A stretch of 64,000 nucleotides of DNA from Embleya scabrispora DSM 41855 (GTDB lineage: Bacteria; Actinomycetota; Actinomycetes; Streptomycetales; Streptomycetaceae): the NCBI RefSeq assembly GCF_000372745.1, contig NZ_KB889676.1, positions 1-64,000 on the forward strand, written 5' to 3'. A program made the translations under genes and the position numbers. How positions within the stretch are numbered: the stretch's first letter is position 1; each line of letters opens with the position of its first letter. The notes below the pieces were generated by a model, which was not told the origin of the DNA, searched no databases, and saw only the letters and a program-made list of their open reading frames with translations. Positions 33,502-38,980 of this stretch are shown one piece after another.

Positions 33502-33538
33502 CGAGTGCCCCCGCCGAATCGATCGGCGGGGGCACTCG
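33502..33538. terminator. Bidirectional terminator between proS and LysR gene
   Basis: CGAGTGCCCCCGCCGA (33502-33517) and TCGGCGGGGGCACTCG (33523-33538) form a perfect 16-bp stem with loop ATCGA between convergent genes. Confidence 0.85.
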
Positions 33539-33552
33539 CGTTCGGTCGCCCG

Positions 33553-34455
33553 TCACGCCGGCCGTTGCGGCCGGCGGCCGGCGGTGTGTTCGGCCAGGAG
33601 GTCGGCGAAGGATGTGGTGAGCGGGTCGGGGCGGGTGCGGGTGTAGGCGGTGAGGACTCGGCGCACGGGTGGGTCCGGGCGCAGCAGGACGCCGTCGAAG
33701 CCGGGGGGCACGATGTCCGCGGGAACCAGCGTCGGGCCCAGCCCGGCGGCGGCCAACAGTGGTGCGGCCGCGGTCTGTTCGACGCGGACGGCGACCGTCG
33801 GGTGGAAGCCGGCCGCGGCGCAGACCCGGTCGAGCAGCTCGGCCAGGCCGTTGTCCGGGGCGAAGTGCACCCAGGCGCGGTCGGCGAGCGCCGCCGGCGC
33901 GATGGTGCCGTCGGCGTCGAGCGCCGCCGGATCGTCGGCGGCGAGCACCACGACGAACTCCTCGACGCCCAGGTCGCGTACCGGCCCGGGCCAGGACTCG
34001 GGCGTCGGGCCGATGGCCAGGTCGGCCCGGCCCGCCGCCATCGCGGCCCGGAGTTCGTCGGTGTGCGCGTACTCGCGCAGCCGGATCCGCACGCCCGGCT
34101 GCCGGCGTCGCCAGGCACGGAGCACGGGCGGCAGGATGCCCAGGCTCACCGAGTAGACCGTGGCGATCTCCAACTCGCCGCCGGCCAGCCCCGCCACGCA
34201 TCGCGCCGCCTTGTGCAGGCGTTCGGTGTCGGCGAGGGTCGCCCGGGCATGCGGCAGTACGGCGCGGCCCATCGGGGTGAGCCGCACCGCGCGGGGCAGG
34301 CGTTCGAGCAGCGCGCCGCCGACGGCTCGTTCCAGGGCACGGATCTGGTGCGACAGCGCGGGTTGGGTGACGTGCAGCAGCTCGGCCGCCCGGGTGAACG
34401 ACCCCGTGTCGACCACGGTCACCAGGTATTCGAGCTGTCGCACCGTCGCCGCCAT
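33553..34455 (-). CDS. LysR-family transcriptional regulator
   Basis: A 300-residue regulator with an N-terminal winged helix (RQLEYLVTVVDTGSFTRAAELLHVTQPALSHQIRALE, here RQLEYLVTVV and TQPALSHQIRALE) and a periplasmic-binding-like effector domain. No typical divergent target starts on the other side: the next genes also run on the minus strand, so its target is not obvious. The C-terminal end is proline/arginine rich and normal length. Confidence 0.9.
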   Translation of the reverse strand: MAATVRQLEYLVTVVDTGSFTRAAELLHVTQPALSHQIRALERAVGGALLERLPRAVRLTPMGRAVLPHARATLADTERLHKAARCVAGLAGGELEIATVYSVSLGILPPVLRAWRRRQPGVRIRLREYAHTDELRAAMAAGRADLAIGPTPESWPGPVRDLGVEEFVVVLAADDPAALDADGTIAPAALADRAWVHFAPDNGLAELLDRVCAAAGFHPTVAVRVEQTAAAPLLAAAGLGPTLVPADIVPPGFDGVLLRPDPPVRRVLTAYTRTRPDPLTTSFADLLAEHTAGRRPQRPA

Positions 34456-34480
34456 GCACGAATTTTATCGTGATGTCCCA

Positions 34481-34750
34481 TTACCTGTCTTTGCTGCATG
34501 GGCTGGCCGGTCCGGCCGGGATCGCCCGATGGGCGATCTCCTCGGCCCGCACTCGGTCGGTGCCGAACGCGCCCGGGGCGAGGGCGTGGCTCGGTTCGCC
34601 GACATCGACCGCGCCGGCCACGGACACCGGGCCGCTCGGGCAGGTGTCGGTGACCGCGAAGTCGGTCGGATTCGCCGGGGCGGCCGGCACGTGTCCGGAT
34701 CGCATCGCGGCGCTCTCCTCGTCGATCTCGACGGCGTCCTCGTGACCCAC
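34481..34750 (-). CDS. Small hypothetical protein downstream of the sensor kinase gene
   Basis: An 89-residue frame starting at GTG 34750, 34 bp after the kinase stop and on the same strand. Nearly every codon ends in G or C and the composition is balanced (VEIDEESAAMRSGHVP.., GTDRVRAEEIAHRAI), unlike the overlapping plus-strand frame, so it is likely a real gene or remnant. I recognise no family. There is no signal peptide or membrane segment. The ribosome site is weak. Confidence 0.45.
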   Translation of the reverse strand: MGHEDAVEIDEESAAMRSGHVPAAPANPTDFAVTDTCPSGPVSVAGAVDVGEPSHALAPGAFGTDRVRAEEIAHRAIPAGPASPCSKDR

Positions 34751-34784
34751 AACCCGTGCCCCGCGACCACGATCCGCGACGCCC

Positions 34785-37076
34785 TCAGCCGAGCCCGAGC
34801 AGGGCGCACGCGGACGCGAGTTCGGCCGTGCACACCTCGCGCATGTCCAGGCCGGGAAGCGTGGGCAGCAGTTCCTTGACGTTGGCCCGGGTCAGCGCGA
34901 CCGGCGCGAGCGCCACGGTCGGCACCGAGGTCGTCCCGTTGTCGCGGGCGGCGTTCACACGCGCCAACGGTTCGCCCCGGCCCAGCGTGATCGCCATCTC
35001 GGCGGCGGCCTCGGCCTCCGGCCCGCCGGGCTTGAGCACCGAGACGGTCTGGGTACCCGCGATGATCCGGCGCAGCGCGGCCGAGTCCGGGTCCTGCCCG
35101 GTCAGCGGCACGGGTTGGCCGACACCGGCGGCACTCAAACCCCGCAGCACGCCCGCGGCCATCGTGTCGTCCGCCGCGTAGACCCCGATCAACTGCCGTG
35201 GGCCGCCGAGCGCGGTCAGCGCGTCGCCGATCACCTGCTGGGCCTTGGGCCCACCGGCGTCCTCGACGTCGTACTCGCGCCCGATCGTCACCTCACCGTC
35301 GAGCACCGCGTGGGCGCCGCGCTTGACCTCGTTTCCGGCCCGATCGCCCGCGCGGCCGTTGAGCATCACGATCGAGCCGCGGTGCGGTCCGCCCGCCGCG
35401 CGCACCGCGTCGAGCAGCGCCTGGGCCTGGAGCCGGCCCACCGCCCGGAAGTCGAACGAGACATGCCCGGCCACCGGGCCGGCGGCGAGTTTGTCGAAGG
35501 AGACCACCGGGATGTCGTGCTCCCGGGCCCTGGTCACCGCCGGCGCCGCGTCCTTGGGGTCCACCGGGCCCAGCACCAGCGCCCGGACCCCGGCCGAGAT
35601 CATCGCGTCGACCTGCACACGCTGTACGTCCGGCTGCCGGTCGGCCTGTGCGAAGCGCACGGTGCAGTCGGGACACAGGTGTCGGATCCGGGCCTCGAAC
35701 GCCGGTCGCACCGTGCGCTCGGCCCGTTCATCGGGCAGCAGCAGGCCGACCGGAAACGCGGTGGACGAGTGGGCGGCGTTGGAGGTGCCGTCCCCGAACC
35801 CGCGCCACACCAGCAGGCCGGCCGTCAGCGCGACCACGACGGCCACCGCGACCACGACCGTGTACCGGGAGCGGGTCGAGGGCAGCCGATGGCTCCCGCC
35901 CCGACCCGCTCCGGTCGCACGCACAACGCGCGCGGCGGGCGCGGCGGCCGGGCTCGACGCGCCGTCCGGGAGATCGTCCGGGTCGCCCGGCATCGCGTCC
36001 CGGGCGGGCTCGGCACCGACCCTGGTCGGCCCGAACCCGAGCGAGTCGGCGGTGTCCTCGACCGCGGGGCCGGCGATCGGCGCGAACCGCGGGTCGTCGG
36101 TCGCCTCGTTCGCCGGGTCGTCCGGCACCACGCCCGCCGCCCGGCCCGGGGCATCGCCGAAGTCCTCGGCCGGCGGATCCGGCATGCCCTCGGCGTCCAG
36201 CGCGCGCCCCGCGATCCGCAGCAGCGCGTGCGCGAGCGGCACCGGCAGCCAGCCGCCGGGCAGATCCTCGTCCGTCCCGGTCGGCACCAGTGCGCGGGCC
36301 CGGGTCGGCGTCGGCCGGCGGCTCGGATCCTTGTCCAGACACGCCCGCAGCAACGGCAGGAACGCCTCCGGGGCGTCGGCCAGGTCCGGATCGCGGCCGG
36401 TCAGGTTGGCCAACAGGACCGGCCAGGGCCCGGATCCGAACGGCAGTCGTCCGGTGGCCGCGTAGGCGAGCACCGCGCCGTAGGAGAAGACGTCGCTGGC
36501 CGGCCCGACGTCGGCCCGCTCGAACTGCTCGGGCGACATGAACCCGAGCGTGCCGAGGGTGTGCCCGGTGCGGGTCAGCGCGGTCGCCCCGTCCAGCAGC
36601 GCGATACCGAAGTCGATCACGATCGGGCCGTCGACCGCGAGCAGCACGTTCGCCGGTTTCAGGTCCCGGTGCACCAGGCCCACCGCGTGCATGGCCACCA
36701 GCGCGTCGGCCAGGCCGCGGGCCACCGCGCCCAGGGTGTGCGCGGGCAGCGGACCGAACGTGTCGACCGCCTCGCCGAGCGCCATCCCGGGGATGTACGC
36801 GGTGGCCAGCCAGGGCACCTCGGCATACGCGTCCGCGGCCACGACCGGTGCGGTGAACGGGCCCCGCACCCGACGCGCGGCCTCCACCTCGCGGGCGAAC
36901 CGCTGCCGGAACGCCTCCTCGTCGTCCAGCAGTTCCACCCGTACCCGCTTGACCGCCACCGTCCGCCCGGCGGGACCTCGGCCGAGGTACACCTGACCCA
37001 TGCCGCCGGCCCCGAGCCGGCCCAACAGGCGGAACGGTCCCACCCGACGCGGATCGTCGGCCCGTAATGGCTCCAC
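34785..37076 (-). CDS. Transmembrane Ser/Thr protein kinase fused to a periplasmic sugar-binding-protein-like sensor
   Basis: A 763-residue receptor kinase. The cytoplasmic kinase domain (about residues 14-262) is complete: [11 protein letters not shown], Lys43 in [14 protein letters not shown] with Asp138, DFG at 155 and [11 protein letters not shown] Pro/Asp/Ala-rich linker leads to one membrane helix (about 405-425). The extracytoplasmic part (about 441-763) resembles XylF-like type 1 sugar-binding proteins ([66 protein letters not shown]). This suggests that sugar or autoinducer binding outside controls phosphorylation inside. GTG 37076 follows GGGGAA. A small frame follows downstream. 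Confidence 0.9.
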
Positions 37077-37205
37077 TGGGTTCCCCCGTCGTCGACTCCG
37101 GCCGTCGATCCCGTCCGGCCGAGGCCGGGATCGCTCGCACGCCTGCCTCGCGTGACCGACCGGACCCAATCGTTGCCGAATCCGGCCCCGCTCCGCAGCC
37201 ACACG

Positions 37206-37230
37206 GCGGCACCCGGGACCCGGGTGCCGC
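37206..37230 (-). terminator. Hairpin terminator downstream of the alkyl sulfatase gene
   Basis: GCGGCACCCGGG (37206-37217) and CCCGGGTGCCGC (37219-37230) form a near-perfect palindrome, 32 bp past the sulfatase stop and 130 bp before the kinase start. Confidence 0.65.
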
Positions 37231-37261
37231 GGGCCGGCGGCCGGGCCGGCGGTCGGCGATC

Positions 37262-38980
37262 TCAGCGCAGCGTGAGTTCGGTGGGTTTCTTCGGTTGTGC
37301 CGGGTCGAAGAGATCCAGCAGGGTCGCCGCCCGTTCGGCGGTGCCCCGCGCGGTCCGGGCGTCCTCGCCGGCCAGGGCGCCGCGCAGGTCGGTGCGGCCC
37401 AGGTGGAGCGATTCCACGGTGTCGCGCGGGAGTTCGAGGATCACCTCGGCGTCAGACGGGATCTCCCGCAGGAACCGGGCGACGCCGCGGTGGATGTGCA
37501 GCGCGACCTCCTCCTCGCCGTGCACACCACCGAGCACCCGCCAGCCCAGCACGGCGTCCACGTCCAACGCCTCCTCGGCCCGCAGCCGGGTCGTGTACAA
37601 CTCGATCAGCCACGCCGCCGGGATCCGGGCGACCAGATCCCTGGGGGCGAAGATCGCCGCGAAGTTGATCAGCGGCAGGATCGGCTGGATCCGGTCCTCC
37701 AACTCGTCCGCGCTGGTCAGGTACCAGTTCCGCCAGTTGATGTTGAGCTGCGCGTAGCCCAGTCGGCGAAACGCGGCGGCCTTGACCGAGCGCGCGTCCG
37801 CGTCCTCGCGGTCGATCCGGGTCAGGTGCGTGGCCAACTCGGCCGCCCACTGGTACTCGCCCGCCGCGTACGCCTGCGTCGCCGCGTCCAGCACCCGTTC
37901 CCGGCCGCCCATCAACTCCACCGTGCGGCGCGCGTATTCGGCCCGGGGCAGCGGGTCCAGGTCCACCGGGTCGCCGCCGAACCAGCCCAGGTAGCCGAAG
38001 AAGATCTGCCGCACGGTGTGCTTGACCGTGCCGTAGTACTCGCGCGCGTAGGGGGCGTACGAGGCCAGGTGTTCGGGCAGTTCGACGGTCTCGGCCAACT
38101 CGTCCGGGGTCAGCCCCTCGTTCATCCGGCGCACCGTCTGGTCGTGGATGTACTGGATGCAGTCCCGCTCCACCGCCAGCACCTCGGCCACCTTCGCGGC
38201 TCCCGACACCGGTTGTCCGTGACTGGGGATCAGGTGCGTGGCCCGATGCGCGCGCAGCGCGTCGATGCTGCGCACCCACTGCATCGGGTCGCGGTAGCGA
38301 CAACCGCGCAGGGTATGGATGTTCGGCAGGGTCGGGCCCTGGATGGTGTCGCCGCACAGGAGCACGTCGCTGTCCGGGAGGTACACGCTGATCGCGTCGT
38401 CGGTCTCGCCGGGATTGTGGAACAGGCGCAGCCGCACGCCCGCGACCTCGGTCTCCAACTCGTCGCCCACCAGCACCGTGGGCATCACGAACGACGGCGT
38501 GCCCACCCCCGCGTGCGGGCCGACCGCGTCGTTGACGCCCTCGGTGTCCGTGGGGGCGAGCAGGTTGCCGAGCGAGTACACCGAGCGCAGGCCCATGATG
38601 TGCAGCGCGGGACCGGACTGGTCGGTCAGACTCGCCAGGAAGGTCCGGTGCGCGTACACGTCGACATCCGGCGTCGCGGCCCAGTGGCTCAGACCGTTCA
38701 CGTGATCGGGGTGATGGTGGGTGACCACCACGGCCCGGACCGGCGCACGCGGGTCGCTCAGGTGCGGACGCAACTCCGCCTCGATCACCGCGGCCAGGTC
38801 CGCGCCGCTGCCGGTGTCGACCACCACCAGGCCGTCGGGGCCCTCGATCACCGTCGCATTGGCCGAGGACCAGCCCACGGCGACGTGTACGTGCTCGGCC
38901 ACGGTGTACACGCGCTTGGTGAAGTGCGCGGTATGGGCGGCGAGTTCGGGATGAACGGCAGGCTCGACCTCGTACGTCAT
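37262..38980 (-). CDS. Metallo-beta-lactamase-fold alkyl sulfatase (SdsA1-like)
   Basis: A 572-residue protein of the type III alkyl-sulfatase family. The zinc motif [10 protein letters not shown] (His88, His90, Asp92, His93) is intact, further ligands occur in [12 protein letters not shown] and [13 protein letters not shown], and a C-terminal SCP2-like domain (about residues 430-560) can bind the alkyl chain. Such enzymes release sulfate from alkyl sulfates. No signal peptide is present, so it appears cytoplasmic, unlike Pseudomonas SdsA1. ATG 38980 is used; an ATG 18 bp upstream is possible. Confidence 0.85.

Follow-up and report, generated by a model that had tools for sequence, protein, structure and literature searches.

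The window (the whole stretch of DNA that was analysed, 64,000 nucleotides of Embleya scabrispora DSM 41855) contains a receptor kinase gene at positions 34785..37076 of the minus strand, with 763 codons (763 aa), a GTG start at 37076 preceded by a purine-rich stretch, a TGA stop at 34785 and a GC3 of 0.92. Four features follow one another in the protein, all encoded on the minus strand: a Hanks-type kinase domain (36297..37028, residues 17-260; PF00069, E 8.8e-32 with Pfam), a juxtamembrane linker rich in Pro, Ala and Asp (35865..36266, residues 271-404, 134 residues), a single membrane helix (35805..35864, about residues 405-424), which is the sole hydrophobic segment, and a putatively extracytoplasmic, XylF-derived type 1 periplasmic-binding (PBP) domain, hereafter the sensor (34788..35759, residues 440-763). 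Within the sensor, PF13407 (Peripla_BP_4) matched residues 472-702 (E 9.1e-46, Pfam), and Peripla_BP_6 was absent from the Pfam matches at E up to 1. Several arginines precede the helix on the kinase side, which suggests that the kinase lies inside and the trap outside; the receptor should thus have a cytoplasmic kinase and an extracytoplasmic trap. Besides the gene itself, the linker matched, among the loci examined, a single 27-residue stretch (in L054).

A reading frame joining a kinase, a membrane helix and a solute-binding protein (SBP) domain places the protein in the general class of single-chain kinase-SBP receptors. The coordinates given by the sequence-only reading were right, to which the minus strand can now be added, and the complete kinase, the one helix and the full XylF-like domain that it had described were all recovered. 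So was its small reading frame 34 bp downstream (34481..34750, minus, 89 codons), which is coding-like and linked to the kinase gene by position only.

Kinase domain and genomic setting

The motifs expected of a Hanks-type Ser/Thr kinase (glycine loop, catalytic Lys, HRD, DFG and an APE-like motif) are all present: a glycine loop from residue 22, VAVK at 40-43, E63, HRDLKPAN from 136, DFG at 155-157 and SPE at 181-183. Compared with 34 aligned related kinases, the protein keeps every one of the 38 positions at which conservation reaches 90% or more (38/38), K43, E63, H136-R137-D138, D155-F156-G157 and P182-E183 included, and the kinase is intact as judged by its sequence. Two equivalog models matched the kinase part alone and below their cut-offs: StpK7 (NF052427, 127.6 bits for a cut-off of 900) and AfsK (NF053615, 272.5 bits for a cut-off of 1300).

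The nearest kinase found, from Yinghuangia seranimata (70% identity over 266 residues), has a C-terminal part matching PQQ_2 (a PQQ propeller). The genome itself gave 57 Pkinase matches, 52 of them above the curated cut-off. In 41 of its kinases, counting the window gene, a C-terminal part of at least 200 residues was readable; scanned together, these parts contained 3 PQQ propellers, 2 WD40 and 2 PASTA modules among the best 25 of 69 families. A paralogue with a kinase 62% identical to the window kinase (L208) ends in a WD40 propeller, and among the closer paralogues 8 of 10 C-terminal parts are without any Pfam family match. Since related kinases bear such varied C-terminal modules (PQQ, WD40), exchange of the sensor appears usual in this clade. 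An anti-phage role was considered and is not claimed: PADLOC matched the receptor kinase with 34 models, but the best 25 of these (PD-T4-6 and mad6 included) all start in the kinase domain and were read as generic kinase similarity.

The gene lies in an insert of approximately 3.7 kb (about 33546..37261) between proS and an alkylsulfatase-like gene, which is absent from three other Embleya genomes. In these (G001, G002 and G003) the two flanking genes adjoin, and no match to the kinase, the sensor, the small frame or the LysR gene was found between or around them, so that the receptor kinase gene is present in 1 of 4 Embleya genomes examined. The genus assignment follows from G001, two loci of which match contigs of Embleya hyalina NBRC 13850 base for base over their full 4,338 and 3,364 bases. 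DNA similarity extends beyond the proS end as far as about 33,536-33,545 and sets in again at about 37,245-37,262; the corresponding gap is 69 bp (G001), 67 bp (G002) and about 660 bp with other sequence (G003). The spot between these convergent genes is therefore of variable content, with less than 70 bp twice, about 660 bp once and about 3.7 kb here.

Also inside the insert is a gene for a LysR-type regulator (33553..34455, minus) with its own promoter-like site at 34491-34462. The small frame had a codon score of 0.33 bits per codon; the five window genes used for training scored 0.29-0.78, and their wrong frames no more than 0.19. Under the limits applied, Pfam, NCBIfam and PADLOC contained no family matching it. 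Matches to it in 9 of 249 genomes, besides its own (E 2e-4 to 7e-3, 27-43% identity), were taken as chance. Opposite to it, a plus-strand open frame (34470-34745) begins near the LysR promoter-like site; with a codon score of 0.03, it is not coding-like. Ten frames were scanned between 27,130 and 44,032: four matched families (proS-like synthetase, LysR, alkylsulfatase-like and ffh/SRP54), besides the kinase itself with its own matches, six were without family match, and there was no sugar gene among them. The neighbouring genes were thus set aside as a clue to the ligand, their family matches having given nothing useful.

Other fusions and known systems

Other fusions were sought with the sensor in overlapping sets of 61, 249 and 296 genomes; in each genome, the top-ranking 36, 8 and 7 candidates, respectively, were scored. 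New matches with an open frame longer than 650 aa, besides the gene itself, numbered 7, at least 9 and at least 8, and no orthologue of the fusion was seen: among the matches listed, 0 of 24 frames above this limit, which a very short fusion could escape, had a kinase match beside the sensor. A scan of genome contigs, whose reach is close relatives, with records near the window's own genome possibly excluded, gave 79 loci, none with both halves, and among plasmid records none reached 80% coverage of the entire protein. Other SBPs also have long frames upstream, but these were rejected as fusions and look like chance: 18 of the 19 listed have, by eye, a lipobox-like Cys before the domain. In the genus g57, 8 of the 9 genomes with two sensor matches (among the matches listed) have one of them in a frame of 588-598 aa; in the sole one that was read (L197:4093-8692) the domain begins after a lipobox-like signal, which indicates no fusion.

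The statement of the sequence-only reading that actinobacteria have similar fusions is borne out by MSMEG_1200 (StpK7), a kinase and SBP in one polypeptide with a further 260 in InterPro according to an excerpt of PMC6069109, and by Streptomyces plasmid proteins. According to an excerpt of a review, MSMEG_1198 is a target of StpK7, which phosphorylates it and also controls how susceptible the bacterium is to phage TM4; the present analysis gave no link between the window gene and that role. StpK7 resembles the window protein in joining a Hanks kinase and a solute-binding domain in one chain, and differs in that its model reaches the kinase part alone of the window protein, below cut-off. Two Streptomyces proteins, WP_331752712.1 and WP_112443064.1, annotated as "bifunctional serine/threonine-protein kinase/ABC transporter substrate-binding protein", likewise have a kinase followed by an extracytoplasmic type 1 PBP, and their kinase parts are 44-50% identical to that of the window protein over the matched stretch. 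Both, however, combine Pkinase with Peripla_BP_6, whereas the sensor described here is Peripla_BP_4, and the window protein falls outside this Streptomyces type. On both of their plasmids, genes annotated as kinase/substrate-binding fusions occur as tandem pairs, each after a hypothetical-protein gene (L218:2501-5939 and L219:2495-5750).

Among receptors of other kinds, PDB entry 2x7x (BT1754, a hybrid two-component sensor whose periplasmic domain binds fructose) resembles the window protein in that a type 1 PBP directly forms the outer portion of the receptor, but belongs to a histidine-kinase system. It is listed at Z 33.0 for a stand-alone relative of the sensor (L002, see below) and is missing from the sensor's own list of 50 entries. 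In XylFII-LytS and GlnH-GlnX-PknG a solute-binding protein also feeds a kinase, but as a separate chain, according to excerpts of PMC9769921 and PMC6069109. No second XylF-type (Peripla_BP_4) kinase receptor appeared among the matches listed, although InterPro's list may hold some, and no title or abstract start among the open-licence papers listed named one. The kinase-SBP single chain is thus already known; what is new is the pairing of a kinase with an XylF-type sensor whose pocket is altered.

Ancestry, predicted fold and sugar site of the sensor

The closest relatives of the sensor are stand-alone XylF-type proteins, at no more than 48% identity among the matches listed, and sequence comparison indicates that it is descended from XylF-type solute-binding proteins. 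The equivalog model of the XylF D-xylose-binding protein (TIGR02634, xylF) matched it at 150.8 bits, below the cut-off of 389.55 bits. Homologues were collected by dropping matches shorter than about 300 residues or with stops, which left 144 rows, 139 of them distinct. A maximum-likelihood tree built from 67 sequences placed the sensor with three proteins of the genus g2 (L002, L003 and L038; support 97/94). Its end branch has a length of 1.41 (median 0.19), and the program warns that the placement of long rows is unsure. Such fast change could also reflect decay or another role.

In g2 the SBP gene precedes dxs and an amino-acid permease gene. The locus is whole in G004, where ATPase and permease genes sit between the SBP gene and dxs, but these two genes were not found in the 14-kb stretches read in G030 and G020, so that 2 of the 3 g2 relatives are without neighbouring ATPase and permease genes in the stretches read. 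The g2 loci of the xylF-ATPase-permease-dxs-permease arrangement are found at L040:6832-13340, L039:2580-7752 and L038:6-7758.

The comparison of a predicted structure with XylF, suggested by the sequence-only reading, gave the expected type 1 PBP fold, like that of 3m9w and 3ma0. The AlphaFold model of the sensor (330 residues, mean pLDDT 94.4) is two-lobed, with 4ywh_B and 3m9w as best PDB matches (both Z 34.4), and aligns structurally to XylF over about residues 439 to 752. The sensor (alignment A2) and its canonical relative L002 of G030 (alignment A3) were folded with the same 66 sequences; L038 was outside both alignments, but within the tree and the site counts. The sensor superposed on open XylF (3m9w) at 2.4 A over 295 residues (Z 34.4) and on closed XylF (3ma0) at 3.1 A over 301, with a tied Z of 34.1, and its Foldseek query TM was 0.78 and 0.76, respectively. 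L002 was at 1.5 A over 303 from the closed, liganded 3ma0 (Z 42.6) and at 3.7 A over 299 from the open 3m9w (Z 35.0), with query TM of 0.89 (3ma0_A) and 0.73. The predicted sensor is thus open-like and its canonical relative closed-like, an AlphaFold conformation being a hint and not a measurement. Compared with E. coli XylF (3m9w, 3ma0) and the Actinobacillus protein 4ywh, the sensor has the same fold and two lobes (Z 34.1-34.4), but is fused to a kinase, has a membrane helix instead of a free or lipid-anchored N-terminus, and its sugar site is altered.

The ligand residues of E. coli XylF, which we take to be R16, W17, D90, R91, D135, N137, W169, N196, D222 and K242, were placed on the sensor via alignments. 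Five of these ten positions are altered, all on the minus strand: K529 stands for R91 (35490..35492; R in 139/139 homologues), A580 for N137 (35337..35339; N in 137/139), A607 for W169 (35256..35258; W in 138/139), D636 for N196 (35169..35171; N in 138/139) and A452 for W17 (35721..35723; Y or W in 134/139, A in 4). Four of the altered positions are therefore nearly invariant among the 139 homologues, and the XylF set is not reproduced. R16, D90, D135, D222 and K242 (XylF numbering) are retained, and these five polar or charged residues fit a change of the pocket more readily than its loss. The pocket of the ribose-binding protein is given as N13, F15, F16, D89, R90, R141, F164, N190, D215 and Q235 in an excerpt of PMC2630998. 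This list resembles the XylF list in pattern. We presume the residues of the two lists to correspond.

At the nine positions left when W17 is set aside, the sensor changes four, whereas 129 of the 139 homologues change none, 8 one, 1 two and 1 (L038, from G020, which also has an insertion) five; L002 keeps all nine. Outside the site, 38 columns show a conservation of 95% or more among the homologues, and the sensor leaves 34 of them unchanged, giving 4/8 changed in the site vs 4/38 elsewhere (Fisher p 0.02); the corresponding figures were 4/9 vs 12/59 (p 0.12) at a conservation threshold of 90% and 4/8 vs 2/21 (p 0.03) at 98%. Change is thus weakly concentrated in the sugar site relative to the other conserved columns. 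The earlier term "sugar-binding" is not supported, given five altered positions of ten and an open-like model with a closed-like canonical relative. The sequence-only reading had named a sensor lacking a ligand pocket as evidence against itself: these observations approach that situation, but there may be a pocket for something else. The sensor is, on alignment and model, XylF-derived but probably not a xylose sensor.

Proposed function and significance of the altered sensor

The reading given preference, which we hold at slightly short of an even chance, is that of a single-pass receptor Ser/Thr kinase whose XylF-type trap has been rebuilt to answer a small molecule other than xylose. The trap would derive from an XylF-type sugar-binding lipoprotein of a branch sometimes lacking transporter genes, and in the fusion the membrane helix would take the place of the lipoprotein anchor. 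With the sugar site rebuilt, the new ligand could shift the open/closed balance of the trap and the spacing of a receptor dimer, which would govern both the trans-autophosphorylation of the kinase and its action on targets in the cytoplasm by phosphorylation. Counted for this reading were the domains in one frame, the 38 kept kinase positions, the grouping with three g2 SBPs, the kept fold (34/38 non-site columns, pLDDT 94.4) together with the changed site, the two of three g2 relatives without neighbouring ATPase and permease genes, and the varied C-terminal parts of related kinases. Counted against it were the long end branch of the sensor and the weakness of the excess of changes in the site.

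It is conceivable, if rather doubtful, that the trap binds no small molecule at all and is a dimer or docking platform for another SBP or a cell-wall partner. Both aromatic clamps (W17 and W169) and two site asparagines are gone, the model lies nearer to open than to closed XylF while the canonical relative does the reverse, and L038, which also lacks adjacent transporter genes, has lost five of nine site residues; a ligandless pocket, however, would not need the retained R16, D90, D135, D222 and K242, and the preference of the sensor for the open form is slight (Z 34.4 vs 34.1, TM 0.78 vs 0.76), in conformations that are a hint only. A canonical pentose (xylose) sensor, as the sequence-only reading implied, is very improbable: the closest solved relatives are indeed E. 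coli XylF and 4ywh and the xylF model does match, but the score lies well below its cut-off, R91, N137, W169, N196 and W17 are changed, and the ten frames scanned around the gene include no sugar genes. A decaying, non-functional gene from a recent insertion would agree with the presence of the insert in one of four Embleya genomes and with the fast evolution of the sensor; it is unlikely in view of 763 codons without a stop at a GC3 of 0.92, the 38 conserved kinase positions all kept and a confident predicted fold.

With the rebuilt-trap receptor as the preferred reading, we tentatively suggest, at rather less than even confidence, that a stepwise conversion is visible: g2 solute-binding proteins without transporter genes (two genomes) and without the sugar site (one), then the kinase-joined branch described here, with a site rebuilt or closed off. 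The outcome would be a class of receptors that respond to something other than the sugar suggested by their fold, perhaps to no small molecule at all.

The gene encodes a genuine receptor kinase, which belongs to a known kind and has an unusual outer domain. What makes it noteworthy is an XylF-like trap that appears changed at half of the positions that should hold the sugar, with the predicted fold and the kinase motifs intact. The signals sensed by bacterial receptor kinases are mostly unknown, and annotation by similarity would lead here to a "xylose sensor", with which the site residues disagree. The outer domain, about 330 residues modelled with confidence, and a canonical relative with a kept site form a direct pair for ligand screening, and the same pair may reveal how a receptor arises from a transport protein.
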